A stretch of DNA of 64,000 nucleotides from Qipengyuania marisflavi (lineage in GTDB: Bacteria; Pseudomonadota; Alphaproteobacteria; Sphingomonadales; Sphingomonadaceae): positions 1 through 64,000 of the forward strand of contig NZ_VCAO01000001.1 in assembly GCF_005884405.1 (NCBI RefSeq), read 5' to 3'. This document shows, piece after piece, positions 18,917 through 57,261 of this stretch; the first letter of the stretch is position 1; every line of letters begins with the position of its first letter. The notes under the pieces were generated by a model. The model saw only the letters and a program-made list of their open reading frames with translations, had not been told where the DNA came from and made no database searches. The translations under genes and the position numbers were made by a program.

Positions 18917-18951
18917 ACAATTCGAGGATGCAAGCAGAACGGTAAAATCCT

Positions 18952-21684: not shown

Positions 21685-21695
21685 GGCCCATTTCC

Positions 21696-29242: not shown

Positions 29243-29306
29243 TGCTCGAAATTCGCATTTTGGTCGCTGGATTGCCTCGGCTCCGTATTCAGACTATCGC
29301 AGGTTC

Positions 29307-29708: not shown

Positions 29709-29829
29709 CATTTCCCGGGCGGTGCTCTGCGCCGTTTGCGAGCTTGACGGATTACTTGACTTGCGCCGTGTCGATTGACGCGTACGCCGCAGTCGTTCCC
29801 GGCCAGTTCGCTTTGAAAGAGTGAGAATT

Positions 29830-35716: not shown

Positions 35717-36078
35717 GCCTACTGGCCTTTCCGCTGGCGCTGGCGGCCTGCGATTCTGGCCAGGACACTGCCGACATGAACGACATGCCGATGGCAGAAA
35801 ATGAAATGATGATGGACGGCGAGGATATGCCAATGATGGAACCTGGCAGCGAAATGCAAACCGTCAGCGCAGAAGGCACGGTCACTGCAATCGATGCCGA
35901 AGCGGGCACGATAACCGTCGACCACGGTCCGGTCCCAGCGATCGAATGGCCTGCGATGACCATGGCTTTTGAAGCCGATGAGCAACTGCGCAGCGAAGTA
36001 AGCGTCGGTGAGGGAATTGCCTTTGAATTTCGTACTGGTTCTGAAGGCAGTGTGATCACGTCGATCACGAAGGAGTAA
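35695..36078 (+). CDS. cusF: CusF-like periplasmic copper-binding lipoprotein
   Basis: A 127-residue protein with lipobox LALAAC (Cys 19), a Met/Asp/Glu-rich linker ([21 protein letters not shown]) and a C-terminal CusF beta-barrel with the Cu(I)/Ag(I) ligands [17 protein letters not shown] (His, Trp, Met, Met). It would carry copper to CusB/CusA while tethered to a membrane. E. coli CusF is soluble and lacks the Met-rich linker. The start lies inside the 3' end of cusA (22-nt overlap). The CusF domain clearly resembles the one fused to cusB. Confidence 0.93.
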
Positions 36079-36134
36079 ATAGGTTGGGTGGTGCCAGGCA
36101 AATCTGGTGCCGCCCATCGCGAAACAGGAGGAGC

Positions 36135-37679: not shown

Positions 37680-37691
37680 GAAGGACAGGCG

Positions 37692-42255: not shown

Positions 42256-42744
42256 TCAGGCTCCGTCGGCCGGACAGGTGGTATAACCCCAAAAGCCGAA
42301 CTCATCCTTGGCTCTTGGTGCTGCCACGATCATCTCCTGCATTTGCAGGCCCGCATCGCCTTCATCATCCAGCATGCGGGTTTTGATCCGAAGCTCGCCG
42401 TTCGCATAGCTGCCAGGGCCATCGGCGGTCACGGGGATCAATTTGCCATTGATCTTGATCGCTCCGCCCCCGTCACCGTCATAGACAAACGAGGGAAAGG
42501 CCACTTCGGTCAGGCGGAACTGGCAGGCCTGTCCTGCGCCCAGAGCAGCAAGGTCCGCGTCATTCATGGTCCCGGGAAGCATGAGGCCCGGGTCAACATT
42601 TGCCAGTGCACTGGCCGCGTCCTCGATCGGCGCGGCAGTGGCAGGCGGGTCGAGCTGGGCTTCGCGGTCGTTGCCCGGAGCGGTGTTCGAATTGCAGGCG
42701 GCAAGCGGCAGCGCGATGAGCGCCGTGAAAGCTATCTTGTTCAT
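42256..42744 (-). CDS. Lipoprotein of unknown function
   Basis: A 162-residue protein with a clear lipobox (LIALPLAAC, Cys 17), an Ala/Pro-rich linker and a compact domain (about 70-160) with two cysteines (QACQFRL and TTCPADG) and conserved-looking segments FPSFVYDGDGGGAIKINGKLIPV and DEFGFWGY. I do not recognise the family. It overlaps DUF305 by 4 nt and is the last gene of a five-gene minus-strand unit that starts at 45889. A periplasmic partner of the redox or ion-handling proteins of that unit is possible but unproven. Confidence 0.75.
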   Translation of the reverse strand: MNKIAFTALIALPLAACNSNTAPGNDREAQLDPPATAAPIEDAASALANVDPGLMLPGTMNDADLAALGAGQACQFRLTEVAFPSFVYDGDGGGAIKINGKLIPVTADGPGSYANGELRIKTRMLDDEGDAGLQMQEMIVAAPRAKDEFGFWGYTTCPADGA

Positions 42745-43268
42745 GGCTGCATCTCCTCGGGCAGGCGTTCTTCGGTTCGAGGACCGTTCTGCTCGATATC
42801 GTCTATGAGGTATTTCATCTCGGCGATTTCGCGGCGCTGTGCGACAATGATGGCCTGCGCGAGTTCGCGCACGCGAGGATCTTTCAGGCTCGCGCGTTCG
42901 CTGGTCATGATCGCGATTGAGTGGTGCGGGATCATTGCTGCCATATATTCGGTATCGTCAACGGTGGTCTGGCTGCGCACCAGCCATAGTGCGAGCGCGA
43001 ACACAAAGGCCCCGACGCCCAGGATGATCAAGTTCTTGGTCCGGTCCTTGTACATGCCCCACATGAAGAGCAGCATGACAACCATCATCATCGCGCCCAT
43101 GACGAACATCATCCAGAAGCGCGTTTCGCTCCAGAAAAGATCATCGACGGTAAAGGTGTTGGCATACATCAGGAAGAACATGATCACGGTCGAGGTCGAC
43201 ACCATGGCCATGAATCGCCAGTAGCTGCCGCCCCCTCCCTTGTCCGAGTGGGAGGTCTTTTCGGTCAT
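42741..43268 (-). CDS. DUF305 protein with three membrane segments
   Basis: A 175-residue protein: three hydrophobic segments (about 17-37, 50-72, 78-95) followed by a DUF305 helical domain containing DTEYMAAMIPHHSIAIMTSERA, with the PHH motif and several Met, and ending ERLPEEMQP. DUF305 is a ferritin-like helical domain common in copper and stress operons, probably metal-binding. It overlaps the channel gene and the lipoprotein gene by 4 nt. The start at 43268 is set by ATGA overlap; upstream in-frame sequence is antisense to the channel gene. Confidence 0.88.
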   Translation of the reverse strand: MTEKTSHSDKGGGGSYWRFMAMVSTSTVIMFFLMYANTFTVDDLFWSETRFWMMFVMGAMMMVVMLLFMWGMYKDRTKNLIILGVGAFVFALALWLVRSQTTVDDTEYMAAMIPHHSIAIMTSERASLKDPRVRELAQAIIVAQRREIAEMKYLIDDIEQNGPRTEERLPEEMQP

Positions 43269-43678
43269 GCTTTTTCTCCTTTTTGCATCATGGTCCAGAA
43301 TAGCTGCGCCGAGCAGCTGATGAGAGCGAAGCCGGTAAGGGCCTCGACGCCGGCGAGAACTCTCAGGTGCTCGGTCGGATAAATGTCGCCCAGGCCCAGT
43401 GTGGTCACGTTGATGAGCGAGAAATAGAAGTAGTCCATCCAGTCCATGGAAGGCGCCTTGTCGAACCCTCCCAGGCCCCATTGCGCGCCCAGCCAGAAAC
43501 CTGCGGCAAAAAGGATCGCGACCAGGAAATGCGACGCGAGCACGAGTAGCGAGACTGCAAGCTTTCCCAGCGTATCGCGGCGGCGATCGAGAAGCCGGTG
43601 GCCGACACCCAGAATGGCAAGGTGGGAAGCGACGGCTGCAAGGAACAGAAAGACGGCGAGAAGGAGCGCGGTGATCAT
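43265..43678 (-). CDS. Two-helix ion channel-like membrane protein
   Basis: A 137-residue protein with four hydrophobic segments (about 1-25, 40-62, 76-92, 105-130) and a pore-loop-like motif TTLGLGDIYP between the last two, close to the TVGYGD potassium filter of two-transmembrane channels (PF07885 type). The filter has Leu where Tyr is usual, so selectivity may differ. It overlaps its neighbours by 4 nt on each side, so it belongs firmly to the operon. Potassium or other cation movement is inferred from the motif alone. Confidence 0.8.
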   Translation of the reverse strand: MITALLLAVFLFLAAVASHLAILGVGHRLLDRRRDTLGKLAVSLLVLASHFLVAILFAAGFWLGAQWGLGGFDKAPSMDWMDYFYFSLINVTTLGLGDIYPTEHLRVLAGVEALTGFALISCSAQLFWTMMQKGEKA

Positions 43679-44424
43679 GCGAGAAGCTTCGCGCCCATCC
43701 ACAGACCCATTCCGATCATGAACAGATTTTCGGTCAGCGAGACGAAGCCGAGCGGCACATTGCTGCCCCCACCGACGCAAGCGCATTTGAGCTCACGCTT
43801 GTCGATGTAGACAGCCTTGAAGACGCTGACAGTGCCGACGGTGCCAATGAACAATGCCAGCGGGGCCGAGAGCCAGGTCAGCGCGCCTGCGGTCATCAGA
43901 ATGCCGGCAGCGGCTTCGCCGAACGGGTAGACGAAGCCATAGGGCACCCAGCGCCGTGCGAGCAGATCGTAGTTGAGGAACATTGTCGAGAAACTGCGCA
44001 CGTCCTGAAGCTTCTGGACGGCGAGCAGGGTCATCGACAGGCTGACGAACCATTCCGCGGCCCGGACGGTGAACAGATCGTCAAAAAACGCCCAGCTCAG
44101 CCCTAGCGCGAGCAGCAGCGCGACCGCGAAAATCGCAATGACCGGCTGATAGCTGGTCTCGCCTTCCTCTGGCTGCGAACGGCTCTTGCCGAAGAACTCG
44201 CGGACATCGTCATAGCCGCCAATGCGCTTGTCTTCGATAAAGGTCTGCGGGGTGGTCTCGACGTTGTGCTTGTCCTTGAATGCGTCGGTTTCCTCCCTGC
44301 TGGTCAGGTGATGATCCTCGACCTCGAAGCCTTGCCGTGTGAGGAGATCGACCGTCTTGATGCCATAGGGACAGACATGGTCCTCCATGACCATACGGTA
44401 GACCGCCGCTGTTCGGGTCGTCAT
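43675..44424 (-). CDS. Glutaredoxin-MauE/DoxX fusion membrane protein
   Basis: A 249-residue protein with an N-terminal glutaredoxin domain (about 8-80; HVCPYGIK with a single active Cys 18, then TTPQTFIEDKRIGGYDDV) joined to a MauE-like membrane domain of four or five helices (about 95-245) containing KCACVGGGSNVPLGFVSLTENLFM. MauE/DoxX proteins move reducing equivalents across the membrane. The fusion suggests export of thiol redox power to the periplasm. A GGAG site precedes ATG 44424. It follows the APC permease by 112 bp and overlaps the channel gene by 4 nt. Confidence 0.87.
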   Translation of the reverse strand: MTTRTAAVYRMVMEDHVCPYGIKTVDLLTRQGFEVEDHHLTSREETDAFKDKHNVETTPQTFIEDKRIGGYDDVREFFGKSRSQPEEGETSYQPVIAIFAVALLLALGLSWAFFDDLFTVRAAEWFVSLSMTLLAVQKLQDVRSFSTMFLNYDLLARRWVPYGFVYPFGEAAAGILMTAGALTWLSAPLALFIGTVGTVSVFKAVYIDKRELKCACVGGGSNVPLGFVSLTENLFMIGMGLWMGAKLLA

Positions 44425-44536
44425 GAATCGCTCCATCTGTTTTGCCTGACGTTTCTCGTGCTCAACGCCGGTTTTCGGTGAACGGTTTCGAAAAAGCCCG
44501 GCGTAAAAGCGGCAAAGCTGGTTGAAGAAGGTGCCA

Positions 44537-45889
44537 TCACCTTTTCTCTCCTGACCCATCATCTTCAGGAGATGCGGGCGCTTCGGAATTGCGCGAGAGG
44601 TAGATCCATTCTCCCACGAAGACTGCGACGATGCCGATCGCCGCGTAGGCGACAACGGCAGGATCGCTGCGCAATTTGGCCGCGGTAAAGGCTGCGAGGA
44701 CCACGCCATCTGCCGCGAGCGCTGTCAGAAGTATTGTTGCGCGCGCGCCGACTTCCTTGCGCAGGTGGCGCAGGACGCCCCAGTGAACCAGCATATCCAT
44801 GACGAGGTAGAAGAAGGCGCCCAGCGAGGCGATCCTTGACAGATCGAACAGGACCGCAAGCGTCCCGGCAATGACCACCGTATAGACCAGCATGTGGCTG
44901 CGAATCCCGCCGCTCATGCCGAAATGGCTGTGCGGGATCATCTTCATGTCGGTCAGCATCGCAAGCATGCGCGACACGGCAAATACGCTCGCTATCACGC
45001 CCGAAGTGGTGGCGGCGATCGCGATCGCCACGGTGAAATAGAAGCCCAGTTCTCCCAGCGCCGGACGCGCCGCAGCCGCGAGCGAATAATCGCGCGCCTC
45101 GACGATCTCGGATATGCTCAGGCTCGAACCCACCGCCACTGCGACAAGCAGATAGATCACGATGCAGACGGCTATCGAGATCATGATGGTTCGGCCGACA
45201 TTCTTGTGCGGGTCAACGATTTCGCCGCCGCTATTGGTAATCGTGGTGAAGCCTTTGAAGGCGAGGATCGAGAAAGCAACCGAGGCGAGCAGGGCTTCTG
45301 CATTGGTCAGCGAAACGGACTGCGAAAATGCGCCTGATGAAAATCCGCTGGCCCAGATCGCCGCGACTGCGAACAGCGCGATACCGCCGATCTTGATGGC
45401 GGACATGATGAGCGAGAAGCCGCTTACCGACTTGTTGCCCGCTGCATTGACGAGATAGGCGAAGATGATGAGTGCAAGCGCTGCCAGCGAAACGAGCCAC
45501 CCGCTGCTTTCGAGGCCAAACGGGCGCAGCGCGTAAGTCGCAAAGGTGCGGGCCACGAGGCTTTCATTGATGACCATCGACAGAGCCATCAGGAGCGATG
45601 CCGACGCGGCAATGACGCCGGGTCCGTAGGCCTTCTGCAAGATCATCGCGATGCCGCCCGAAGACGGCCATTTGTTCGACATCTTGATATAGCTGTAGGC
45701 CGCCAGCGAAGTTACCAGCGCGCCGGCGATGAAAGACAGGGGGAAGAGCGGACCGGCGAGCTCGGCGATCTGCCCGGTCAGCGCGAATATGCCGGCACCG
45801 ATCATGACGCCGGTACCCATCGCAACGCCGCCCAGCAGGGTTATCGAGCCAGCCGTTTCGCTTTGATTCTCGTGCTCATGGTCTTGCAA
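44537..45889 (-). CDS. APC-superfamily amino-acid permease-like transporter
   Basis: A 450-residue membrane protein with about 12 hydrophobic segments. The first has the APC signature GVMIGAGIFALTGQIAEL, with FKGFTTITNSGGEIVDPHKNVGRTI in the middle, typical of the amino acid-polyamine-cation family. Substrate unknown. TTG 45889 is the start; GGGGAAAG lies 4 bp upstream. A promoter of the motif shared with the ECF cassette lies 51-77 bp upstream, so it is the first gene of a redox/ion unit. A link to thiol or cysteine transport is speculation. Confidence 0.85.
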   Translation of the reverse strand: MQDHEHENQSETAGSITLLGGVAMGTGVMIGAGIFALTGQIAELAGPLFPLSFIAGALVTSLAAYSYIKMSNKWPSSGGIAMILQKAYGPGVIAASASLLMALSMVINESLVARTFATYALRPFGLESSGWLVSLAALALIIFAYLVNAAGNKSVSGFSLIMSAIKIGGIALFAVAAIWASGFSSGAFSQSVSLTNAEALLASVAFSILAFKGFTTITNSGGEIVDPHKNVGRTIMISIAVCIVIYLLVAVAVGSSLSISEIVEARDYSLAAAARPALGELGFYFTVAIAIAATTSGVIASVFAVSRMLAMLTDMKMIPHSHFGMSGGIRSHMLVYTVVIAGTLAVLFDLSRIASLGAFFYLVMDMLVHWGVLRHLRKEVGARATILLTALAADGVVLAAFTAAKLRSDPAVVAYAAIGIVAVFVGEWIYLSRNSEAPASPEDDGSGEKR

Positions 45890-45939
45890 GACTTTCCCCT
45901 GTCGATGGTCTCCCGTGAAAGAAAGATTATGTCGACCAG

Positions 45940-45966
45940 TACGTTCGCCCTTGCCGCGTCCCTCAA
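45940..45966 (-). promoter_or_regulatory. ECF-type promoter before the APC permease unit
   Basis: On the minus strand TTGAGGG (45966-45960), 16 bp, then CGTA (45943-45940), 51 bp before the start at 45889. It has the same two elements and exact spacing as four other sites at 47628, 47664, 49018 and 54550. The remaining part of the 45890-46101 gap shows no gene I can support. Confidence 0.75.
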
Positions 45967-46101
45967 AAAACTTTCAGGACAAAGCCGGAGAGTTGCGTTT
46001 TGCTCGGGGCGCTCGAGCAAATTGCGGCCTAAAGCGGACTGCCTGCGCGACCGAAAAACGCTCCGCGAGTTTCAAGGCAAGCGGCCATCGCCGCCGATCT
46101 G

Positions 46102-46377
46102 CTACGTCCTGAATCGGTTCCGGAAAAATCGCAGCATTGGCACCCCAATGATCGCGATGTACCAACCGTACAAAAAGCTGCCGAGAGCGCCTGCCAGAAA
46201 GCCCGAGATGGTCAGCCATTCGAACCCGGGAAGCAGCGGCGCCCACGCTTCGTGCATATGCGCCTGTTCGGGCGCGAGCAGGCCGAAACCGATGCAGATC
46301 AGGTAGCTGAAAAGCAGGAAGAGGCTGAGTGTCCAGCCCCATATCAGTATTGAGGTTTTGACCGAATAGTCTGACAT
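46102..46377 (-). CDS. DUF5676 family small membrane protein
   Basis: A 91-residue protein with two hydrophobic segments (about 10-32 and 55-80) and the DUF5676 pattern APLLPGFEWLTISGFLAGALGSFLYGWYIAIIGVP. The family is usually found in copper, silver and mercury resistance islands; the function is not known. It follows DUF411 by 44 bp and probably ends the three-gene unit led by the methyltransferase at 47572. Confidence 0.85.
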   Translation of the reverse strand: MSDYSVKTSILIWGWTLSLFLLFSYLICIGFGLLAPEQAHMHEAWAPLLPGFEWLTISGFLAGALGSFLYGWYIAIIGVPMLRFFRNRFRT

Positions 46378-46421
46378 GATGGTCCTCCGTTAGAGTTGGC
46401 GCTGAGATGGCTTGTCCATGG

Positions 46422-46889
46422 TCACGGGTAGGATGCGAAAACGCGCTGCCCGCCTGAGCCGAAGGCGATGACATCATACGGCTGCACCCGGTCCCCGGCT
46501 TCCATTCCGGGCGAGCCAAGCGGCATTCCGGGCACAGCCAGGCCTGCCACGCCTTCGGGGCTTTCGCGTAATAGTTTCGCGATGGCATCGGCGGGCACGT
46601 GGCCTTCGATGATATAGCCATCGACTTCCATCGTGTGGCACGACCACAGATCCTGCGACACACCCCTGGCTGTCTTGAGCGCAGCCATGTCGTCGGTGTC
46701 GACCGAGGCGACCTCTGCTTCGAGTCCGTGTTCTACGTGACCGGCCCAATTGAGACAGCAGCCGCACCCTGCGTCGCGGAACATGGTGTAGGTCGCGGCC
46801 TGGGCCGCATTCGAGCAGGCTGCAATGGCGAGGAGGAGCGAGGCCGCCAGCGAACGGCGTAGCGGTCTCGAATCTTTCATGAGGTTCAT
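46422..46889 (-). CDS. DUF411 (CopG-like) periplasmic metal-binding protein
   Basis: A 155-residue exported protein with a signal peptide (AIAACSNAAQA), a thioredoxin-like opening TYTMFRDAGCGCCLNWAGHVE with CGCC, and the DUF411 core LWSCHTMEVDGYIIEGHVPADAI and GLAVPGMPLGSPGME. DUF411 proteins bind copper and are linked to copper resistance. An intact copy sits here and a broken paralogue is at 56630-57077. It overlaps the methyltransferase stop by 4 nt, so they are co-translated. Confidence 0.92.
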   Translation of the reverse strand: MNLMKDSRPLRRSLAASLLLAIAACSNAAQAATYTMFRDAGCGCCLNWAGHVEHGLEAEVASVDTDDMAALKTARGVSQDLWSCHTMEVDGYIIEGHVPADAIAKLLRESPEGVAGLAVPGMPLGSPGMEAGDRVQPYDVIAFGSGGQRVFASYP

Positions 46890-47572
46890 TGAGCATTGCC
46901 TTTCTTGATGCCGCGCCAGAGAGAAATGGTTCCGGTCGCGGTATGGATACGATCGAGCAATTCGGCGTCCGCGAAAATCTCGGCGAGCAATTTCTCGACG
47001 GCTCCGTCGGCGCTCGGCTGGGTGTCCTTGACGCCGTCGAGAAGCTGAACGCTCGAACGGAACAGCGCGCGCATGAGTGGAGCATCCTGCCGCATATAGT
47101 CGGCAATCAGCGCCATGCCCCCGGGGGCGAGCAGGTTCTCGATCTGGTCGAGGATCGCGCGCTTTTGCGATACGGGGACCTGGTGAAGGACGAGGCTGCT
47201 GACGATCTTGTTTGGCCGCCAGCCGTCGGAAAGCTCGAGACTATCGAGAAAGCCGTTGTGCCACCGGACCATATCGGCTCCGGCACCGAACTTGCGCTGC
47301 GCGATAGCCAGCGCTGCGGGGTCGGGCTCAACGCCGATGAAGCCGGCTTCGGGGCAGTTGGCCATCAGCGCCCTGAGCAAGGTCCCGGTGCCGCACCCGA
47401 CATCGATGACCTTGTCGCCGGGCAGCAATGCGGCCTTTTCGACGATTGCGCGGCGCCACCGTCTCTCGCGCGTAAAGACTGCGATCGCGCGATCATAGAA
47501 CGGCGTGAGCCAGCTTTTGCCCAGCGGCGGAGTGAACTCGCGCTCTTTTGGCGGAACTGCCGCGCTTTTCAT
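46886..47572 (-). CDS. SAM-dependent methyltransferase in the ECF-controlled block
   Basis: A 228-residue class I methyltransferase with motif I VIDVGCGTGTLLRAL, motif II around GFIGVEPDPAAL and post-motif ILDQIENLLAPGGMALIADY. It is unlike the UbiE-type enzyme at 19323 in detail. The substrate is unknown. It is the first gene of a minus-strand unit with DUF411 and DUF5676. An ECF-type promoter lies 56-82 bp upstream, divergent from the sigma cassette. Confidence 0.85.
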   Translation of the reverse strand: MKSAAVPPKEREFTPPLGKSWLTPFYDRAIAVFTRERRWRRAIVEKAALLPGDKVIDVGCGTGTLLRALMANCPEAGFIGVEPDPAALAIAQRKFGAGADMVRWHNGFLDSLELSDGWRPNKIVSSLVLHQVPVSQKRAILDQIENLLAPGGMALIADYMRQDAPLMRALFRSSVQLLDGVKDTQPSADGAVEKLLAEIFADAELLDRIHTATGTISLWRGIKKGNAQ

Positions 47573-47627
47573 GCCATGGCTCCTATTCGACGCTGGTACT
47601 TGCCGCTGTTGCTTGACTTACTCCTCT

Positions 47628-47654
47628 TACGCGTCGCCGACCCGCACCCCTCAA
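47628..47654 (-). promoter_or_regulatory. ECF-type promoter before the methyltransferase-DUF411 unit
   Basis: On the minus strand TTGAGGG (47654-47648), 16 bp, CGTA (47631-47628), 56 bp before the start at 47572. Its -35 stands back to back with that of the opposite promoter at 47664, the two forming CCCTCAA-N9-TTGAGGG. Confidence 0.8.
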
Positions 47655-47663
47655 AAAAGAAAC

Positions 47664-47690
47664 TTGAGGGTTTGCGCGAAGCATCGCGTA
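47664..47690 (+). promoter_or_regulatory. ECF-type autoregulatory promoter before the cnrYXH-like cassette
   Basis: TTGAGGG (47664-47670), 16 bp, CGTA (47687-47690), followed by TAG and an AGGAG ribosome site before ATG 47721. ECF loci are commonly autoregulated, which supports assigning this motif to the sigma factor encoded just downstream. Confidence 0.82.
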
Positions 47691-47720
47691 TAGGAACCGT
47701 GCAACCGACAGGAGCAAGGG

Positions 47721-48017
47721 ATGCGTGACAATCAGACACTCGATGCGATGCTCGGCACCATGGCCTCGCAGAAGGCTGGCGACGTGCCGCCCGACTTCAT
47801 GAACGGCGTCTGGCAGCGCGCAGGGCAGCTGGGGGAAATTGCCGATCAGCGGCGCAGAATGGCCTTGTTCGCCGGTCTGTTTGTCGTCGGCCTAACGGCA
47901 GGCGCAGGGACCAGCGGATGGCCGTCCGAAAACGGCGCTCCTACAGAAATTGTTGGCGAGAGCCTCGTTGGCGGAGAATCCCTGTCACCCGCTGCATTGC
48001 TTCATGTGGGGTCATAG
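47721..48017 (+). CDS. CnrY-like small membrane anti-sigma factor (putative)
   Basis: A 98-residue protein with a cytoplasmic N-terminal half (about 1-45), one membrane helix (about 46-65, MALFAGLFVVGLTAGAGTSG) and a short periplasmic tail. Size, topology and place directly before a CnrX-like sensor and an ECF sigma factor match CnrY (95 residues), which holds CnrH inactive at the membrane. Sequence similarity to CnrY itself cannot be judged by eye, so this call is mostly by organisation. AGGAG precedes the ATG; the gene ends 3 bp before the sensor. Confidence 0.7.
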   Translation: MRDNQTLDAMLGTMASQKAGDVPPDFMNGVWQRAGQLGEIADQRRRMALFAGLFVVGLTAGAGTSGWPSENGAPTEIVGESLVGGESLSPAALLHVGS

Positions 48018-48020
48018 ACG

Positions 48021-48455
48021 TTGAAGAAGTTTCACCTTGTCCTTGCGGTCCTGCTGGCGGCGCTCGCCGGATGCCTAGGAGCGCTTGCCGCCGATCGCTG
48101 GGCCAACAACGATGCCGAGGGCGGCCTGCACCAGTTCGTGCACGATGAGCTGTCGCTCACGGCTGACCAGGAGCAGCGGCTCGATGCGCTCGAAGCGCGT
48201 TTCGCGGTAGAACAGGCAAGGCTCGAAGCCTCTGCGCGCGCAGCCAACGCCCAGCTCGCCCAGGCAATGGAAACCGAGCAAGAATACGGGCCCGAAGTCA
48301 GTGCCGCGATCGACGAGGTGCATGCGCGCATGGGCGATTTGCAAAAAGCGACCGTGCGCCACGTCTTCGACATGCGGGAAATTCTCGATTCCGATCAGCA
48401 GCTCCAGTTCGACCGGAAAGTGTCCGCGGCCCTCACGCGCGATCCGCGTGACTGA
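48021..48455 (+). CDS. CnrX-like periplasmic heavy-metal sensor
   Basis: A 144-residue protein with an N-terminal membrane anchor (about 5-24) and an all-helical periplasmic domain of the metal-resistance/CnrX type. Its residues His37, His41, Glu58, His114 and Met118 reproduce the spacing of the CnrX nickel/cobalt ligands His42, His46, Glu63, His119 and Met123 exactly. The sensor probably passes a metal signal to the CnrY-like protein to free the sigma factor. The start is TTG at 48021 behind GGGG. It is followed by the sigma gene after 6 bp. Confidence 0.88.
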   Translation: MKKFHLVLAVLLAALAGCLGALAADRWANNDAEGGLHQFVHDELSLTADQEQRLDALEARFAVEQARLEASARAANAQLAQAMETEQEYGPEVSAAIDEVHARMGDLQKATVRHVFDMREILDSDQQLQFDRKVSAALTRDPRD

Positions 48456-48461
48456 CCAGCC

Positions 48462-49028
48462 TTGGCAGCGGTGGATGACACTTCGGATGAAGCTCTGATC
48501 GGGCGGGCGATAGCCGGTGACAAGCGGGCGTTCACAGCTCTCGTCGAGAGCGAGATCGCCCGGTTGATTGCGCTTGCCACGCGCATGCTGGGTTCACCAT
48601 CGCGGGCCGAAGATGTCGTTCAGGACGGTCTCGCGTCGGTCTGGCTGACACGTCATCGCCTCGATCCGAGCAAGCCCATCGGTCCCTATTTGACGACAAT
48701 CGTTCTCAACCGGTGCCGCGACAAGCTCCGCCGCAGGAAAGTTATTGGCTTCCTTGGTTTGCCGGATGGGCGGGAAGCCGACGCCGTTGCCGACGATGCC
48801 CCTAATCCCGAAAATGTTGCCGGAGCCCGCGAACAGCTGCGGCTGGTCCAGGCCGAAATCGGGCGCTTGCCGGTGCGCCTACAAGAGGCGCTCGTGCTGG
48901 TCACTGTCGAGGGGTACAGCCAGGCCGAGGCTGCCGAGCTGCTCGGCACCACCGAGAAAGCCGTCGAGACGCGCATCTATCGTGCGCGCAACCGGCTGAA
49001 GGAGCGGTTCGAAAAGTTTGAGGGGTAG
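48462..49028 (+). CDS. ECF sigma factor (CnrH-like)
   Basis: A 188-residue group 4 sigma factor with region 2 (ALIGRAIAGDKRAFTALVE ... RAEDVVQDGLASVWL) and region 4 (LPVRLQEALVLVTVEGYSQAEAAELLGTTEKAVETRIYRAR); the linker is short. It directs RNA polymerase to stress promoters when released from the anti-sigma factor. The start is TTG at 48462, 6 bp after the sensor gene, consistent with translational coupling. A promoter for copA overlaps its last codons. The repeated TTGAGGG-N16-CGTA motif in the block is proposed as its target. Confidence 0.93.
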   Translation: MAAVDDTSDEALIGRAIAGDKRAFTALVESEIARLIALATRMLGSPSRAEDVVQDGLASVWLTRHRLDPSKPIGPYLTTIVLNRCRDKLRRRKVIGFLGLPDGREADAVADDAPNPENVAGAREQLRLVQAEIGRLPVRLQEALVLVTVEGYSQAEAAELLGTTEKAVETRIYRARNRLKERFEKFEG

Positions 49029-49044
49029 GGCAGCTGACCGCGTA
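49018..49044 (+). promoter_or_regulatory. ECF-type promoter before copAB
   Basis: TTGAGGG (49018-49024), 16 bp, CGTA (49041-49044), 32 bp before the start at 49077. The -35 overlaps the stop end of the sigma gene, so copAB can be raised above the level of the regulatory cassette. Confidence 0.8.
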
Positions 49045-49076
49045 TGTGACGGTATACGCATTTTCAGGAGCCCCCT

Positions 49077-50927
49077 ATGCCTGCCCTCAATCGCCGAAGA
49101 TTCCTTGGAACAAGTGCTAGCGGGCTGGGCCTGCTTGGTCTCTCCGGTGCCATGCCGGCCTGGGCGCGCGGCGCGGACATCCTTGCAGGAAACGCCCGCA
49201 AAGGGCTGGATGAAGTATCCGGGCCGAATATCGACCTCACTGTCGCGCGGTCTGCCTTTGCAACCGGCAACAGACGCGGCGGCGCCATCGCCGTCAACGG
49301 CACGATCCCCGGCCCGTTGTTGCGTTTGAAGGAAGGCACGACCGTCCGATTGAACGTCCATAACCAGCTCGAGGAAGACACCTCGATCCACTGGCACGGG
49401 CTGCTCGTGCCATTCGAACTCGACGGGGTGCCAGGTGTAAGCTTCCCCGGCGTCAAGCCCGGAGAGACCTTCACCGCTGAATTCCCGGTGCGCCAGTCGG
49501 GCACCTACTGGTGGCACTCGCATAGCGGCCTGCAGGAACAGGCCGGGCATTACGGCGCCATTGTGGTGGATCCGGCTGGACCCGATCCGGTCCAGGCGGA
49601 CCGCGAATATATCGTGGTGCTCAGCGAATTCAGCGAAATGTCGCCCCACACGATTTTCGACAAGCTCAAGAAGGGCGAAGGCTACTTCAACTACAACATG
49701 AATACCTGGACCGACGACTATCCGCTTTCGGGCGAGGATCGCCGGATGTGGGCGAGAATGCGTATGATGCCGACCGACCTTAGCGATGTGTCGGCCCCAG
49801 CCTACACTTACCTGCTGAACGGTCATGGCCCGCTCGACAATCTGGAATATCTCTTCCGTCCGGGCGAGCGCGTGCGGCTGCGCTTCATCAATGCCGGGGC
49901 CATGACCTTCTTCAATATCCGCATTCCAGGCCTGCCGATGACCGTCGTTCAAGCCGACGGGCAGAACGTCGAGCCGGTCGAAGTGGACGAGTTCCAGATC
50001 GGCGTCGCGGAGACCTACGACGTCGTCGTGACGCCGGGTGAGCAGCAGGCGTACACATTGGTGGCCGAGTCGGTGGATAGGTCCGGAATGGGGATCGCAA
50101 CGCTTGCGAGCGCGCCTGGCGCGCGCGCGGCCATTCCGCCGCTGCGCGATCCCCCGCTTCTGACCATGGCTGATATGGGCATGAGCGGTATGGACCACGG
50201 GGCTGGCAGCAACGATGCCGGTATGACCGGCATGGATCATGGCGCCGGCGGTATGGCCGGAATGGACCACGGATCGAGCGGAGCGGCTGGCGCGGATGGG
50301 ATGTCCGGTATGGATGGCGGTTCGGCGGAGATGGCCGGAATGGCTGGCATGGCGGGAGGTATGCAGATGCGCGATACATCGCTCCTGCCTCCCGACGTGA
50401 AGGTCGGGCCCGGTCTCGACATGGTCTCGATGAACCCGGTCGACCGTATGGGCGACCCCGGCATCGGCCTTGCCGATGTCCCCCACCGCACCCTCGACTA
50501 TCGCAAGCTCCGCTCGCTGACACCTCATCAGGAGGGGCGGACTCCCTCGCGGCGGATGGAAATCCATCTCACCGGGAACATGGAACGCTATATGTGGTCG
50601 TTCGACGGCAAGAAGTTCTCCGCCGTCTCCGACGAGCCGATCCGCTTTGCCTATAACGAACGCGTGCGTGTCAAATTGATAAACAACACGATGATGGCGC
50701 ACCCGATCCACTTGCATGGGCACTTCTTCGAACTGGTTAACGGCGCACCTGCCGATCGTCAGCCGCTCAAGCACACGGTTAACGTGCAGCCGGGCGGCAG
50801 CGCGCAGTTCGACCTGACGGCGGACGAGCCGGGCGACTGGGCCTTCCACTGCCACCTTCTCTACCACATGCATGCCGGGATGTTTCAGATCGTCACTGTC
50901 GCCAATCCCGATGGGAGCGAAGCATGA
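49077..50927 (+). CDS. copA: CopA/PcoA-type multicopper oxidase
   Basis: A 616-residue periplasmic oxidase with a Tat signal (NRRRFLGTSASGLGLLGLSG), copper motifs SIHWHGLLV (about 104), WWHSHSG (about 144), HPIHLHGHFFE (about 541) and HCHLLYHMHAGM (about 591), and a Met/His/Gly-rich insert at about 364-430 with repeated GMDHG units. This is the PcoA/CopA layout. It oxidises and sequesters copper in the periplasm and works with the outer-membrane CopB. It differs in type from the shorter oxidase at 36135. It overlaps copB by 4 nt. Confidence 0.95.
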   Translation: MPALNRRRFLGTSASGLGLLGLSGAMPAWARGADILAGNARKGLDEVSGPNIDLTVARSAFATGNRRGGAIAVNGTIPGPLLRLKEGTTVRLNVHNQLEEDTSIHWHGLLVPFELDGVPGVSFPGVKPGETFTAEFPVRQSGTYWWHSHSGLQEQAGHYGAIVVDPAGPDPVQADREYIVVLSEFSEMSPHTIFDKLKKGEGYFNYNMNTWTDDYPLSGEDRRMWARMRMMPTDLSDVSAPAYTYLLNGHGPLDNLEYLFRPGERVRLRFINAGAMTFFNIRIPGLPMTVVQADGQNVEPVEVDEFQIGVAETYDVVVTPGEQQAYTLVAESVDRSGMGIATLASAPGARAAIPPLRDPPLLTMADMGMSGMDHGAGSNDAGMTGMDHGAGGMAGMDHGSSGAAGADGMSGMDGGSAEMAGMAGMAGGMQMRDTSLLPPDVKVGPGLDMVSMNPVDRMGDPGIGLADVPHRTLDYRKLRSLTPHQEGRTPSRRMEIHLTGNMERYMWSFDGKKFSAVSDEPIRFAYNERVRVKLINNTMMAHPIHLHGHFFELVNGAPADRQPLKHTVNVQPGGSAQFDLTADEPGDWAFHCHLLYHMHAGMFQIVTVANPDGSEA

Positions 50928-52240
50928 AGATTCGTATTACCAGCCTGCTCGCATCGATCGCAGTCGGCTCAGTTCTCGCCTCCCCCGCTGCGGCGCAGCA
51001 TGCCGGTCATTCGCCCGCGGAGCCGCAGCAGAGCGCCGAGGCGCAGGCTGACGCCAAGACAAAGTGCGAAGAAGAAGCCCAGCGCCATCGCGCGATGGGG
51101 CACCCGGTAGCCGAAGGAGCTTGCGAACCAGTGGCCCAGCCTGAAGTTGCCATGGATCATTCGACGATGGACCATTCGACTATGTCTCATGGTTCGACGA
51201 CCGCTCAGGATGGTCATTCGGGCATGGCAATGCCGATGGACGCTGCCCGTCCGGAGACTACACCCGGGAGTCATGAAGGAATGGATCATGGCTCGATGCC
51301 GCATGGCACGCCTGCCGAAGGCGCGATGGATCATTCGCAGATGAACCAAGGCGACATGGGTCAGGCGGAAGCCAGCAACTCGTCGATGGACCATGGGCAG
51401 ATGGATCACAGCCAGATGAACCATGGGCAGACGGGATCGCAGGATATGCAGGGCATGGACCATTCGGCGATGCAGATGGGCTCGAACGACGATATCCCGC
51501 TGCTGCCGCCTCCTCCCGAAGCCGGGAGCGGTCCCGCGCGCGCGGCGGTCGCGATCTGGGGCGAGGAAGCCATGAACGAAGCGCGGCGCGAACTTGTCCG
51601 CGAGACCGACGGCGGGATGCGCTTCTGGTTTCAGGGCGACCGGCTCGAATACCGCGCCCGCGAGGGAGTGGATGGATATCTTTGGGACATCCAGGGCTAT
51701 TATGGTGGTGATATCGACAAGTTCTGGTTCAAATCCGAGGGCGAAGGCAGCTTCGGTGAGCCTGTCGAGGGAGCCGAAGTCCAGGCACTCTGGAGCCGGG
51801 CGATCGCTCCCTTTTTCGACCTACAGACAGGTGTGCGCCAGGATTTAACAGGACCCGAGCGCACCCATGCTGTCATTGGCATACAGGGCATTGCTCCCTA
51901 CCAGTTCGAGGTCGACGTTGCAGCGTTCGTATCGAACAAGGGTGATGTAACCGCGCGCTTCGAGGGCGAGCTTGATCAGCGCATCACGCAGCGGCTGATC
52001 CTCCAGCCGCGAGCCGAAATCGCTCTTTCGGCTCAGGATATTCCCGAACTCGGCATTGGCGCTGGCCTCGACCGGATCGAGGCAGGTCTGCGTCTTCGCT
52101 ACGAGTTCGCACGCGAATTCGCGCCCTATGTCGGCGTCTCCCAGGAGTGGCGGATCGGTCAGAGTGCCGATTTTGCACGCGCCGCAGGGGAAGACCCTAG
52201 CGTGACGAATTACGTCGTGGGCATGCGATTCTGGTTTTAA
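50924..52240 (+). CDS. copB: CopB/PcoB outer-membrane copper resistance protein
   Basis: A 438-residue exported protein: signal peptide (SPAAAQH), a long Met/His/Asp-rich region at about 10-195 with many MDHS/MDHG repeats, then a beta-barrel domain (about 200-438) typical of CopB, including RYEFAREFAPYVGVSQEWRIGQSADFARAAG and a terminal GMRFWF suitable for outer-membrane insertion. It probably binds or exports copper. The His/Met-rich part is longer than in many homologues. It starts within the copA stop. Confidence 0.93.
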   Translation: MKIRITSLLASIAVGSVLASPAAAQHAGHSPAEPQQSAEAQADAKTKCEEEAQRHRAMGHPVAEGACEPVAQPEVAMDHSTMDHSTMSHGSTTAQDGHSGMAMPMDAARPETTPGSHEGMDHGSMPHGTPAEGAMDHSQMNQGDMGQAEASNSSMDHGQMDHSQMNHGQTGSQDMQGMDHSAMQMGSNDDIPLLPPPPEAGSGPARAAVAIWGEEAMNEARRELVRETDGGMRFWFQGDRLEYRAREGVDGYLWDIQGYYGGDIDKFWFKSEGEGSFGEPVEGAEVQALWSRAIAPFFDLQTGVRQDLTGPERTHAVIGIQGIAPYQFEVDVAAFVSNKGDVTARFEGELDQRITQRLILQPRAEIALSAQDIPELGIGAGLDRIEAGLRLRYEFAREFAPYVGVSQEWRIGQSADFARAAGEDPSVTNYVVGMRFWF

Positions 52241-52256
52241 GAGAAGGAAATATACA

Positions 52257-52817
52257 ATGAGGATAAGACTATCTCTAAGCGCGGTCGCCCTGGCCTTGGC
52301 TGCAGGCGGCACTCCCGCCCTGGCACAATCCATGGATCATTCCGCGCACTCGGACCCTATGGCTTCGACGCAGATGGACCATACGGAGCAGGGCATGAAC
52401 CACGCCGAGCATATGGATGCGATGAATGATGACGTTGCGGAAGCCGAGGCGGTTCTGACATCATATCGGGATGCCCTGACGTCGCGCGATGCAGAGGCCA
52501 TGGCCGCGCTGTTTGCCGAGGAATCCTTCGTTTACGAAAACGGCAAGGCGGAAGGCAGCTTCACGTATTACATGGAGCATCACCTGGGACCGGAACTCGA
52601 TGCAATAACCAGCTTCACCTTCGGCGAACCGACGCTCGCAGTCACCCGGATGGGACATATGGCGTATGGCCGCGAATCGTACACCTATCGGATCGAACTG
52701 GCCGACGGCCGCGTGATCGACCGCGAAGGCGTTGCGACCTCGGTGCTTGCCCATGATGCGGATGGCTGGAAGATCGTTCAGTACCATTCGTCGTCACGAG
52801 CGCCGCGTAACAACTGA
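52257..52817 (+). CDS. Exported NTF2/SnoaL-like protein with His/Met-rich N-terminus
   Basis: A 186-residue protein with a signal peptide (GTPALAQS), a His/Met-rich linker (MDHSAHSDPMASTQMDHTEQG ... HAEHMD) and an NTF2-like domain (about 60-180; LTSYRDALTSRDAEAMAALFAEE, and VIDREGVATSVLAHDADGWKIVQYHSS). NTF2-like proteins have varied roles; the N-terminal repeat resembles that of copB, suggesting copper binding. AAGGA precedes the ATG. It follows copB by 16 bp and precedes the PepSY gene by 20 bp. Confidence 0.83.
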   Translation: MRIRLSLSAVALALAAGGTPALAQSMDHSAHSDPMASTQMDHTEQGMNHAEHMDAMNDDVAEAEAVLTSYRDALTSRDAEAMAALFAEESFVYENGKAEGSFTYYMEHHLGPELDAITSFTFGEPTLAVTRMGHMAYGRESYTYRIELADGRVIDREGVATSVLAHDADGWKIVQYHSSSRAPRNN

Positions 52818-52837
52818 TTTGATCGGGGGAACACCGA

Positions 52838-53572
52838 TTGGCGACACGCTCTTTCAAGCTGCGTCTGCATGTGCTGGGCAGCAAGCTTCACAAATGGCTG
52901 GCAGTCTTTGTCGGCGTCCAGGTGCTTCTATGGATGGCCACCGGGGCGCTGATGTCGTTCCTCGACATCGAAGAGGTCCGGTCCGAACATGTCGTTTCGC
53001 GCGCACCGGAGGTTCTGCCCGCTAATGCTGCCATGCCCGAGTGGCTCGATAGCAGGGAGGGGGTGGTTTCCCTTGCGACGCGCGCGGTCGGCGGCAGGAC
53101 AGTAACCGAGATCCGTCGGGACGATGAAAGCGTCTCGCTCCGCGACCCGAACAGCGGCGCTCTCCTTTCGCCTCTTTCGAGCGCGAGCGCACAGGCCATC
53201 GCTCGCCATGCTTGGACGGGGCCACCAACCACCATAGCGACCACGCGCCTCATCGAAGGTGCTGTCGGGACCGAATTCCGGGGTCCGTTCCCCGCGTGGC
53301 AGATTACCTATGGCGATGAGGACAATACCCGCGTCTACATCGATGCATCGAGCGGCTCGGTGCTCGCTGCCCGCAGCGACACCTGGCGTCTGTTCGATTT
53401 TATCTGGGGGCTGCATATCATGGACTGGACGCAGCGCGACCGCATCAACAGCTGGTGGCTGCTACTGTTCGGGATCGGCGGGACAATCATCGCGGTTTCG
53501 GGCTTTGTCCTGCTTGCCAACCGGTTTCCCAGGATCAGGCGGCGGGCGAAACATGTGCCGAATGCCCCCTGA
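52838..53572 (+). CDS. PepSY-domain membrane protein
   Basis: A 244-residue protein with an N-terminal membrane helix (LHKWLAVFVGVQVLLWMATGALMSF), a periplasmic PepSY region (about 60-180, containing DNTRVYIDASSGSVLAARSDTWRLFDFIWGLHIMDW) and a C-terminal helix (LLLFGIGGTIIAVSGFVLLANRF). This resembles a half of PiuB/PepSY-TM proteins found in iron and copper operons, which may be ferric or cupric reductase-like. The start is TTG at 52838. It is the last gene of the copAB unit. Confidence 0.82.
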   Translation: MATRSFKLRLHVLGSKLHKWLAVFVGVQVLLWMATGALMSFLDIEEVRSEHVVSRAPEVLPANAAMPEWLDSREGVVSLATRAVGGRTVTEIRRDDESVSLRDPNSGALLSPLSSASAQAIARHAWTGPPTTIATTRLIEGAVGTEFRGPFPAWQITYGDEDNTRVYIDASSGSVLAARSDTWRLFDFIWGLHIMDWTQRDRINSWWLLLFGIGGTIIAVSGFVLLANRFPRIRRRAKHVPNAP

Positions 53573-53585
53573 AGCCGCTCCCAGT

Positions 53586-54026
53586 TTAATCAGGTTCGGC
53601 TCGGGCAAAGCGGACCAGAAGGATCGTTAGCGCGGGCACGATCGTCCACATCGCGATCGGGATCAGCGCCAGTCCCGTCACTGGCTCTTGCGGCATCAAC
53701 TCGCTGTAGCGCCAGCTCAGGAAACTGTTTGCCGGAAGCGATGTGGCGATCATTTCGACGGCGATCGCGACGACAAGCCCGAAGCCGAAATAGATCGCAT
53801 AGGGCATTTTGGCGGCTTGCCAGAGCCACGCGTGCCCGCCACGTAATCCTGCAAGGCTATAAGCTGTCAGCAGGATCACGCCATCGCCCAGGCTTGCAAT
53901 GCCGCAGCGAATGGTCCGCTCGAAGGGTTCGAGATCACCCGGTTCGAAGAATGGCATCTGGAAAATCTCCCAGACGAACGCGATCAGGCTCCCGCAAATA
54001 AGGATCAGCCAATGGGTTCTGGTCAT
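53586..54026 (-). CDS. Membrane protein of unknown function
   Basis: A 146-residue protein with four hydrophobic segments (about 5-22, 45-63, 75-97, 118-140). A conserved-looking opening, WLILICGSLIAFVWEIFQMPFF, suggests a real family of unnamed inner-membrane proteins. It is convergent with the PepSY gene (13 bp apart). The start at 54026 is preferred to 54092 because it begins just before the first helix. No motif indicates its function; location points to the copper block. Confidence 0.68.
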   Translation of the reverse strand: MTRTHWLILICGSLIAFVWEIFQMPFFEPGDLEPFERTIRCGIASLGDGVILLTAYSLAGLRGGHAWLWQAAKMPYAIYFGFGLVVAIAVEMIATSLPANSFLSWRYSELMPQEPVTGLALIPIAMWTIVPALTILLVRFARAEPD

Positions 54027-54119
54027 GTTGCAGGTACGCCCGAAAAATCTGCGCCAGCAAATAGCAAGCGGCCGGATTTCCACTTCCTGCATAGCGCCTT
54101 CGCTGCCCCAAAGCCCGGA

Positions 54120-54407
54120 TCAGTCATGATTTTCGCGGCCCTCCGACTCGGCCATGCGAGCAGCGCGTTTGAGAAATTTCCGCATGTCACCTGCTGCCAG
54201 TTCGGTAAGCGGGTGCCGGCTCGCATCGGGGCGCGGTTCGATCATGTCCGCACGTTTCCTAATCTGTTCGATCTGTTCATCGCTCGCCCCGGACAAAAGG
54301 CCAAGAACTATGTTCTCGAGAGTAATGAGGCGAATGCGCATTTGCACCAGATCGGCATGATCGGGCTCCGGGATATCCCAGCTGCCGTTCTCATTGACCG
54401 TGCTCAC
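54120..54407 (-). CDS. Small soluble protein, unknown function
   Basis: A 95-residue protein of mostly helical, charged composition (MRIRLITLENIVLGLLSGASDEQIEQIRKRADMIEP). GTG at 54407 has a good GGAGAAG site 6 bp upstream. No family recognised. It precedes the membrane gene at 54026 by 93 bp, and the sequence between shows nothing clear. A real gene is likely from the ribosome site and codon texture, but evidence is limited. Confidence 0.58.
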   Translation of the reverse strand: MSTVNENGSWDIPEPDHADLVQMRIRLITLENIVLGLLSGASDEQIEQIRKRADMIEPRPDASRHPLTELAAGDMRKFLKRAARMAESEGRENHD

Positions 54408-54549
54408 GACTGCTTCTCCGACGGCTCTGCTGGCACCATGATACTCCCCATTCGTCGTTATCGGCTTCTCTCAAAAAGGTGGCCGAAAAACAGCACCGCT
54501 GCAACCGGCCGTGCTTCGGCCCACCAGCCCCACCGCTGCTGCGGATTGT

Positions 54550-54576
54550 TTGAGGGGAAGAGATGGCGGCTGCGTA
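54550..54576 (+). promoter_or_regulatory. ECF-type promoter before the Met/His-rich protein unit
   Basis: TTGAGGG (54550-54556), 16 bp, CGTA (54573-54576), 54 bp before the start at 54631. It matches the four other sites of the block in both elements and spacing. Confidence 0.78.
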
Positions 54577-54630
54577 AAGAGGATGACTGCACACAGCATC
54601 CACCGCAAGACCGACGAAAGGAAATCGACC

Positions 54631-55020
54631 ATGAAACTGACAGTTCTAGCTTTCGCGCTCGCCACCGGCCTGGCAACCACCCCGGCAATGGCCCGGCAAC
54701 AGCATGACCACGGGGATCAAGCGGCGGCGCAGCAGCAGTCACACGCTGGCCATATGATGCAGGATTCGGCGGCCATGACGGCCCACCGCGAGAAGATGGC
54801 TGAAATGCGCGCGCTGATGCAGCAGGCCCACGCGGCGAGCGATCCTGCCGAACGCCAAAGGCTTATGGCCGAACATCGTGCAAAAATGCAGGAACACATG
54901 GCGGGCATGATGCAGGGGGACAACGCCGATATGATGGCGGCCTGTCACCAGCACATGATGATGATGCATGACATGATGGAGCAGATGGCGGCTCACGAGA
55001 ACATGGCGCAAGACGATTAG
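54631..55020 (+). CDS. Met/His-rich exported small protein
   Basis: A 129-residue protein with a signal peptide (LATTPAMARQQ) and a helical body full of Met and His (AHREKMAEMRALMQQAHAA, HRAKMQEHMAGMMQG, CHQHMMMMHDMMEQMAAHENM). It probably binds copper in the periplasm, like other small Met-rich chaperones. AAAGGAAA precedes the ATG. It stands 54 bp after an ECF-type promoter and may share its transcript with the DUF2231 and lipoprotein genes, although a 215-bp gap follows. Confidence 0.78.
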   Translation: MKLTVLAFALATGLATTPAMARQQHDHGDQAAAQQQSHAGHMMQDSAAMTAHREKMAEMRALMQQAHAASDPAERQRLMAEHRAKMQEHMAGMMQGDNADMMAACHQHMMMMHDMMEQMAAHENMAQDD

Positions 55021-55235: not shown

Positions 55236-55865
55236 ATGAAACGAATACAATTCATGGCTATTGTGGCCGCCAGTCTGCTCTGGATAAGTCCGGCCCAGGC
55301 CCATGGCGACGAGGAACATGGCGAAGCGGCCAGTGCTGTCGTCTCCGATGCGGCGTCAAAAGATATCCAGGCTGCGCAGGGGCACGGCGACACGGCTGCT
55401 GATCATGACGGGGCGAAGGGACAAGATGCAGACGAAGGCGACAAGGGCGTGGTCGGTGTGCTCAAGTCGCTGCATCCCGCCACCGTACACTTTCCGATCG
55501 CCTTGTTCTTTATGGCCGCTCTCACCGAGCTATTCGTCATCGCACGGAAGGGCACAGGCCTAGAGTCGGCAGTGCGCGTACTTGTTTATGGCGGTGCCGC
55601 CGGGGCGGTCGTGGCGGCCATATTCGGTTGGATCCATACCGGTCTCTGGTTCGGCGGAGATACTGCGATGCAGGTTCATCGCTGGAACGGAATGCTGATC
55701 GCGGTTCTCGGTCTGGCGATGGCCTATCTGGCGAGCCGTGCTTCCGCGAGCCGGACCGCGTTTCGCGCCGCAATCTTTGCCATGGCCGCTCTAGTGCTGG
55801 TGCAGGGATTTCTGGGCGGCGAGCTTGCGCACGGTGCCAATCATCTTGGTATCTTCTGGCTTTGA
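55236..55865 (+). CDS. DUF2231-like membrane protein with His-rich leader
   Basis: A 209-residue protein: signal peptide (ISPAQAHG), a His/Asp/Glu-rich stretch (GDEEHGEAA ... GHGDTAADHDGAKG), then four helices with DUF2231 features (LHPATVHFPIALFFMAALTE, HRWNG, GGELAHGANHLG). The His residues in helices could hold haem or metal. The role is unknown; neighbours suggest copper or redox stress. It precedes the lipoprotein gene by 8 bp. The 215-bp gap before it holds no clear motif. Confidence 0.8.
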   Translation: MKRIQFMAIVAASLLWISPAQAHGDEEHGEAASAVVSDAASKDIQAAQGHGDTAADHDGAKGQDADEGDKGVVGVLKSLHPATVHFPIALFFMAALTELFVIARKGTGLESAVRVLVYGGAAGAVVAAIFGWIHTGLWFGGDTAMQVHRWNGMLIAVLGLAMAYLASRASASRTAFRAAIFAMAALVLVQGFLGGELAHGANHLGIFWL

Positions 55866-56629: not shown

Positions 56630-57077
56630 ATTGGCTCCCTTTCGCTCAAACTCCGCAATGCGGGTCTGTTCGTCTCGCTCGCATTGGGGGTGCTGGCCTG
56701 TGCCCCGGCTGCCCATAGCGCCGTCTACACAATGTACCGTGATGCCAATTGCGGCTGCTGCCTTGCATGGCGCGACCATCTGGAAGGCGGGGGCGCAGGA
56801 TGTAGCGGATATGGCGGCTTTGAAAGAACGGCTGGGTGTCCCTCAGCAGCTATGGTCATGCCACACCATGGAGATCGAAGGCTATATCATCGAAGGGCAT
56901 GTACCTGCCGAGGCCATTGCCAAATTGCTGAAAGACCGGCCCACCGATGTGACCGGACTGGCCGTGCCGGGAATGCCGATTGGCTCACCGGGTATGGAGC
57001 AGGGCGGCCGCGTCCAGCCATATCAAGTGATCGCTTTCGGACCCAAAGGCTTTGCGGTGTTCGCAAGCTATCCATGA
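56630..57077 (+). pseudogene. Frameshifted DUF411 gene
   Basis: The first part in one frame reads LALGVLACAPAAHSAVYTMYRDANCGCCLAWRDHLE, the signal peptide and CGCC end of DUF411. The core continues in another frame (DVADMAALKERLGVPQQLW, SCHTMEIEGYIIEGHVPAEAI, GLAVPGMPIGSPGMEQGG). The switch is around 56785-56800 and comparison with the intact paralogue at 46422 suggests that a few codons are also missing there. No good start codon precedes the signal peptide. It is probably an inactive older copy left at the island boundary. Confidence 0.83.
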
Positions 57078-57137
57078 CCACACCACAGGCCCAGCGGCGA
57101 TGCCGCTTGGCGTAAGGTGGTGATGGCCAGGAAATGC

Positions 57138-57212
57138 TGGCTGGGGTGGCAGGATTCGAACCTGCGCATGCCGATACCAAAAACCGGTGCCTTACCGCTT
57201 GGCTACACCCCA
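57138..57212 (-). tRNA. tRNA-Gln (UUG)
   Basis: The minus strand folds as a full cloverleaf with acceptor TGGGGTG/CACCCCA, discriminator G and encoded CCA. The T arm contains GGTTCGAATCC and the anticodon loop reads TTTTGGT with anticodon TTG, giving glutamine. It marks the start of the ordinary chromosome, and its 3' end points towards the island, so it is also a candidate integration target. Confidence 0.95.
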
Positions 57213-57261
57213 GCAGGCGGTGGTCCCTATAACGCCTCTGGGGCGGGTGTGAAGGGCCGGA

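Follow-up and report, generated by a model that had tools for sequence, protein, structure and literature searches.

In a stretch of 64,000 nucleotides from Qipengyuania marisflavi (positions 1 to 64,000 of contig NZ_VCAO01000001.1; hereafter the window), a block of copper and redox genes contains five copies of the motif TTGAGGG-N16-CGTA, each located shortly upstream of the first gene of a unit. We consider it very probable, on the evidence described below, that these copies represent the -35 box (TTGAGGG) and the -10 element (CGTA) of promoters that serve an extracytoplasmic function (ECF) sigma factor of the CnrYXH type, wired here to copper genes. The sigma gene is part of a three-gene cassette within the block, together with the genes of a putative anti-sigma factor and a periplasmic metal sensor. 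As the genes downstream of the sites include copA, copB and a DUF411 gene, among others, we limit the claim to the term 'CnrYXH-type' and do not call the block a nickel/cobalt resistance determinant.

Putative promoter sites in the window and the genome

All five sites were found, with no mismatch, at the positions where an earlier note on this DNA had placed them. Site 1 (45940–45966) and site 2 (47628–47654) are on the minus strand, before the APC permease unit and the methyltransferase-DUF411 unit, respectively. Site 3 (47664–47690), site 4 (49018–49044) and site 5 (54550–54576) are on the plus strand and precede the cassette itself, which would provide for autoregulation, copA, and the gene of a Met/His-rich protein. 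The distances from the end of CGTA to the start codon are 50, 55, 30, 32 and 54 bases for sites 1 to 5, in agreement with the 31–56 bp reported in the note. When the spacer length was varied from 8 to 29, the window yielded five matches at 16, one at 25 and none at any other length. In 300 dinucleotide shuffles of the window there were four matches in total and never more than one per shuffle. The TTGAGGG box alone occurs nine times in the window; the copies outside the five sites lie at 889, 24377, 30298 and 49084 (minus strand), the first two being those that the note had correctly noticed but had listed at 888 and 24374.

The whole genome of the organism (2,669,685 bases, 18 contigs) contains five exact sites, all of them inside this block, and a reversed control pattern gave no exact match. 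The earlier note had named a background frequency of the motif as an outcome that would speak against a regulon, and the genome does not show it. When one mismatch was allowed, 25 matches were obtained (5 exact and 20 with one mismatch) as compared with 19 for the reversed control. Since the control comes close to the number with one mismatch, such sites are at the background level and the signal resides in the exact sites alone; no regulon member beyond the block was detected in the genome at zero mismatches, and what appears at one mismatch is background.

We also scored the sites with a matrix trained solely on exact-core sites from relatives. The five window sites scored 38.6, 34.3, 34.3, 29.5 and 19.8. 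The lowest score belongs to the site at 47664, before the anti-sigma gene, and one of 15 shuffled windows reached 22.9; because this shuffle outscores it, the case for that site rests on the exact motif and its conservation, not on the matrix. A sixth candidate, GTGAGGG-N16-CGTA at 36008, is coding, as it lies inside the end of a CusF-like open reading frame (ORF; 35695–36078). Its matrix score of 11.3 falls within the best scores of the 15 shuffled windows (0 to 22.9), and it was therefore not counted.

Conservation of the sites among relatives

The earlier note had proposed to look for the motif in homologous islands, and its conservation across the loci of relatives proved to be very strong. 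In a family sample of 119 genomes, including that of the organism itself, 53 contained an exact site. Among the sites and sigma hits listed, 80 of the 121 exact sites were no more than 30 kb away from a sigma relative scoring 75 bits or more. The remaining 41 showed no preference: the 39 genomes that have a sigma relative of at least 95 bits contain 15 of them, and the 80 others contain 26. Of these 39 sigma-bearing genomes, 32 carry an exact site close to the sigma gene; the five inspected among the other seven (L068, L069, L077, L078 and L081) show one-mismatch forms, and the remaining two are G020 and G076. G078, the only other member of the genus that was sampled, lacks exact sites, and its best sigma match (8.5e-11) is not a close relative.

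We also used the loci of the best 80 of 567 relatives (L086–L165), obtained when the genomes of 84,980 species were scanned. At a threshold of 90% identity between their sigma factors, these loci fall into 25 clusters; the lowest sigma identities are about 49–54%. Because the loci are related by descent, the counts by position given below are not independent events. The core TGAGGG-N16-CGTA has 248 matches, distributed over 78 of the 80 loci, as against a mean of 0.875 and a maximum of 6 for 40 permuted motifs and none for the reversed motif. Few matches are found at spacers other than 16, save for 13 (24 loci), 18 (10 loci) and 25 (9 loci), each once per locus, which probably reflect shared coding sequence.

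Each core site was assigned to the nearest ORF, within 400 bp downstream, that BLAST matched (E of 1e-5 or better) to one of 21 window proteins. Such homologues lie downstream of 242 of the 248 sites, and the other six are at cut ends of loci. The homologues were those of CopA (73 sites in 23 clusters), a DUF2231 protein (38 in 18, where some assignments may rest on a His-rich stretch), the methyltransferase (36 in 4), the anti-sigma factor (35 in 11), the APC permease (32 in 5), the Met/His-rich protein (20 in 2), the DUF411 protein (7 in 2) and CopB (1 site). Among 65 sites drawn from 24 clusters, mid-spacer positions are poorly informative; some information is present in the trinucleotide that follows TGAGGG, in the dinucleotide preceding CGTA, and in an A/T-rich run of about 8 bases upstream of TGAGGG. 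In a sample of the whole class, with at most 10 candidates scored per genome, the sensor was present in at least 5 of 385 genomes, and three loci (L181, L182 and L183) of three other alphaproteobacterial families have two or three copies of GAGGG-N16-CGTA in the vicinity of the sensor gene.

The positions of the sites within the loci are also conserved. Of the 80 loci, 73 (23 of 25 clusters) have GAGGG-N16-CGTA downstream of the sigma gene, and 75 (24 clusters) have it in the divergent position. In the window, the final codons of the sigma gene double as the -35 box of copA, and the TAG stop codon lies one base past TTGAGGG. The sigma gene ends on the TGA of TTGAGGG in 50 of the 73 loci (19 clusters), and in 18 more, the kin of the window included, the stop codon comes one base after a box built from the final sigma codons. 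Before the anti-sigma gene, 37 loci (13 clusters) have GAGGG as the -35 core, 35 (8 clusters) have AAGGG and 4 have another form; AAGGG was found at none of the 80 divergent positions and at none of the copA positions in 79 uncut loci. On pMOL28, in parallel, cnrY has AAGGG and cnrC has GAGGG. These patterns suggest that the self-activating cassette promoter may be tuned down, in several lineages, by a G-to-A change in its putative -35 box.

Relation to CnrYXH and alternative explanations

The cassette has the Y-X-H gene order of the CnrYXH system of Cupriavidus metallidurans plasmid pMOL28 and of NccYXH: anti-sigma factor, sensor and sigma factor, with a putative target promoter directly after the sigma gene. 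The sigma factor (48462–49028, plus strand; 188 residues), in which Pfam recognizes regions 2 and 4, has CnrH as its best match in a profile search of the PDB (4cxf, 1.9e-48), followed by SigW (1.9e-33), and is 34% identical to CnrH, a member of group ECF20. The sensor (48021–48455, plus strand; Metal_resist, 1.4e-15) gave seven PDB matches, all of them NccX or the cnr sensor, ranging from 1e-26 for the best (NccX) to 2e-23. Across 18 aligned sensors, its residues H37, H41, E58, H114 and M118 do not vary; they align with H42, H46, E63, H119 and M123 of CnrX, the first four of which are metal ligands. The first gene of the cassette (47721–48017, plus strand) encodes a protein of 98 residues with one predicted long helix over a hydrophobic stretch; its position in the cassette and its size suggest that it may be the anti-sigma factor. 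It has no match in Pfam or NCBIfam. The top PDB rows of its profile are WD-40 repeat proteins, with no single stretch significant alone, and its AlphaFold model is poor (mean predicted local distance difference test score of 59.8).

The relationship extends to the DNA. GAGGG-N17-CGTA precedes cnrC on pMOL28 (L166) and nccC on a Cupriavidus ncc plasmid (L167), GAGGG-N15-CGTA precedes the ncc regulatory genes, and AAGGG-N17-CGTA precedes cnrY. A putative promoter core, (G/A)AGGG-N15-17-CGTA, is accordingly common to the block in the window and to the Cupriavidus cnr and ncc genes. Transcription starts have been reported at 53286 and 54660 on pMOL28 (PMC9045368), and both of these are the ninth base after CGTA. 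The promoters cnrYp and cnrCp are called CnrH-dependent there, with mention also of an RpoD promoter upstream of cnrY (PMC9045368).

Several observations weigh against the assignment of the five sites to a CnrYXH-type sigma factor. The spacing in Cupriavidus is 15 or 17, and not 16 as in the window. One GAGGG-N16-CGTA lies inside the cnrB coding sequence, presumably by chance, so that some matches to such a core must be fortuitous. The start at 53286, before cnrY, is labelled RpoD-dependent in a later paper (PMC11647585). Two of the 80 loci lack a TGAGGG core site, and no form within one mismatch was found at four anti-sigma positions, three divergent positions and one copA position among these loci; a cassette on a Caulobacter plasmid (L170) likewise has no core site before it. 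The 98-residue protein has no detectable similarity to CnrY, which did not appear among its PDB matches up to an E value of 10 and was aligned by hhalign with a probability of 0.25%. Finally, the ligand set of the sensor is that of a nickel/cobalt sensor, which cautions against assuming copper.

This last point bears on the nature of the trigger. The sites could be real promoters of a sigma factor that answers nickel or cobalt as CnrH does, in which case those metals, or several metals equally, would induce the copper genes. All five CnrX residues are conserved in the sensor, including the counterpart of CnrX Met123, which is required for cobalt and nickel binding and signalling (PMC7689651). 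The genes under the sites point the other way: the copA site, kept in 73 of 80 loci, is the target site most often kept, and annotation of the window proteins with Pfam and NCBIfam identified no nickel/cobalt efflux gene among the units with a site. In addition, a cassette relative on the Sphingobium plasmid pMI1 (L168:679–5152) adjoins copC, copD, a metal P-type ATPase gene and cueR. We therefore give a nickel or cobalt response a minor but appreciable chance. Judged by the target genes, the natural trigger may be copper, whereas the residues of the sensor are those of a nickel/cobalt sensor.

Two other explanations deny that the motif is a promoter under selection. TTGAGGG might be the operator of a conventional DNA-binding regulator and CGTA incidental, as sites 2 and 3 are an inverted pair forming the dyad CCCTCAA...TTGAGGG with 9 bp between the boxes, and a MerR-type regulator is encoded at 18486–18968. 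We rejected the dyad because sites 1, 4 and 5 each stand alone and have a direction, the 16-bp distance to CGTA is strictly maintained, relatives differ in how far apart the paired boxes lie, and the two-part core precedes the Cupriavidus cnr and ncc genes where the published starts lie; an operator seems to us very improbable. Alternatively, the likeness of the sites could reflect only the recent common descent of one mobile block. Five of the loci (L086–L089 and L092) are indeed 97.7–99.9% identical over 12.5 kb, so these copies are not independent. The core is nevertheless kept in nearly all clusters, both downstream of the sigma gene and at the divergent position, although sigma identities fall to about 49–54%, and it is conserved where mid-spacer positions are poorly informative. 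Descent without selection on the sites is already contradicted by these sequence comparisons, and we regard it as hardly credible.

We thus return to the CnrYXH-type sigma factor as the best explanation of the five sites. At rest, the small membrane anti-sigma factor, probably together with the CnrX-type sensor, would hold the sigma factor off RNA polymerase, and metal at the His/His/Glu/His/Met site of the sensor would set it free. The free sigma factor would then transcribe its own cassette and four target units, namely copA-copB-SnoaL-PepSY, methyltransferase-DUF411-membrane protein, the APC/glutaredoxin-MauE unit and the Met/His-rich protein, with the likely outcome that periplasmic copper is oxidised, bound and exported. 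A more specific picture, which we offer tentatively and at somewhat less than even confidence, is that a CnrX-type sensor has been re-tuned to copper, that the sigma factor and its promoter set make up a self-contained circuit carried on mobile elements among sphingomonads, that the end of the sigma gene, in many lineages the very stop codon, has been fused with the -35 box of copA, and that self-activation has been weakened in several lineages.

The system in the window differs from CnrYXH and NccYXH in its targets, which are copA, copB and further copper and redox genes in place of the CnrCBA or NccCBA efflux genes, and in having more promoters in its regulon. It also differs from the copper-responsive ECF systems that we compared. 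CorE of Myxococcus xanthus likewise commands copper genes, including that of a multicopper oxidase, but its control resides in a Cys-rich C-terminal extension of its own and in a CxC motif (PMC10141476); the window sigma factor contains a single Cys, lacks such an extension and is accompanied by a separate sensor. SigF-NrsF of Caulobacter crescentus is a copper-induced alphaproteobacterial system with NrsF as the anti-sigma factor, and its regulon comprises DUF692, DUF2282 and DoxX genes, whereas, in the passages considered, pcoAB is induced separately (PMC8224329). SigAb of Acinetobacter responds to copper and has small anti-sigma proteins in its operon, but there the sigma gene comes first, followed by aabA and aabB, the direct regulon has three targets, and the passages considered mention no CnrX-type sensor (PMC12153292). 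A full-text search of an open-licence library found no description of a CnrYXH-type copper regulon in sphingomonads, which weakly suggests that the system is new.

If correct, this assignment yields a precise, testable code of promoters for resistance to copper across a bacterial family of wide distribution. It also raises a question of metal selectivity, since one His/His/Glu/His/Met set answers to nickel and cobalt in Cupriavidus and, apparently, to copper in the window. The stop codon in the -35 box, the back-to-back promoters and the fixed 16-bp spacing may illustrate the anatomy of a compact and portable genetic switch.

Gene content, mobility and surroundings of the block

The copA gene (49077–50927, plus strand) encodes a copper-resistance multicopper oxidase (TIGR01480, 776 bits). 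It is followed in the same direction by copB, SnoaL-like and PepSY_TM genes, as identified by Pfam (50924–53572), which, judging from the spacing, are probably co-transcribed with it. Divergent from the cassette, the minus-strand stretch 46102–47572 contains the genes of the methyltransferase (46886–47572), the DUF411 protein (46422–46889) and a membrane protein of 91 residues (46102–46377). The APC permease, glutaredoxin-MauE, ion channel, DUF305 and DUF6692 genes (42256–45889, minus strand) are spaced such that they probably form one unit. The Met/His-rich protein (54631–55020, plus strand) is, from its sequence, probably secreted and has no match in Pfam or NCBIfam.

The earlier note had described a site before every gene group and a single ECF regulon over the whole of 42–56 kb. 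The former description does not apply to three units, the minus-strand ORFs 53586–54092 and 54120–54407 and the plus-strand ORF 55236–55865, which have no site of their own. As to the latter, a dedicated sigma factor is very probable, and the regulon would shrink to about 42.3–53.6 kb plus 54.6–55.0 kb.

The block is nearly identical in organisms assigned to other genera. Window positions 42461–55010 are 99.9% identical to Pseudopontixanthobacter vadosimaris (L086), and 42462–55019 are 99.8% identical to Altererythrobacter xiamenensis (L087); these are two genera, one of which could be close to the organism itself. In a comparison with another genus (G060), the cassette stretch is 97.0% identical and rpoB 83.3%. 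Cassette identity also exceeds that of rpoB in G036, G054 and G062, by a smaller margin, and is below it in G051 and G058 (75.6% and 76.4%, versus 80% and 84–90% for rpoB). These identities indicate transfer of the block from one genus to another. Relatives of the sensor are encoded on 79 plasmid records, of which 40 are predicted to be conjugative. As F-type conjugation genes (TraG_N, TraH, TraU, TraC and TraK) are located at 214–16123 on the minus strand of the window, an integrative conjugative element may carry the metal block as its cargo.

A tRNA-Gln gene (57138–57212) marks the right edge of the metal block, beyond which lie ordinary chromosomal genes for topoisomerase IB, NAD synthase and an aminotransferase. 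We rejected this tRNA gene as an attachment site, as no 14-mer of 57080–57260 is repeated in the window. Further metal genes, which lack the motif, are present at 20395–40022 and encode two resistance-nodulation-division-type systems, two P-type ATPases, the CusF-like protein and a second multicopper oxidase. Beside the tRNA gene, a second DUF411-like coding stretch (56631–57115) is apparently split across two frames, either as a pseudogene or by a sequence error.

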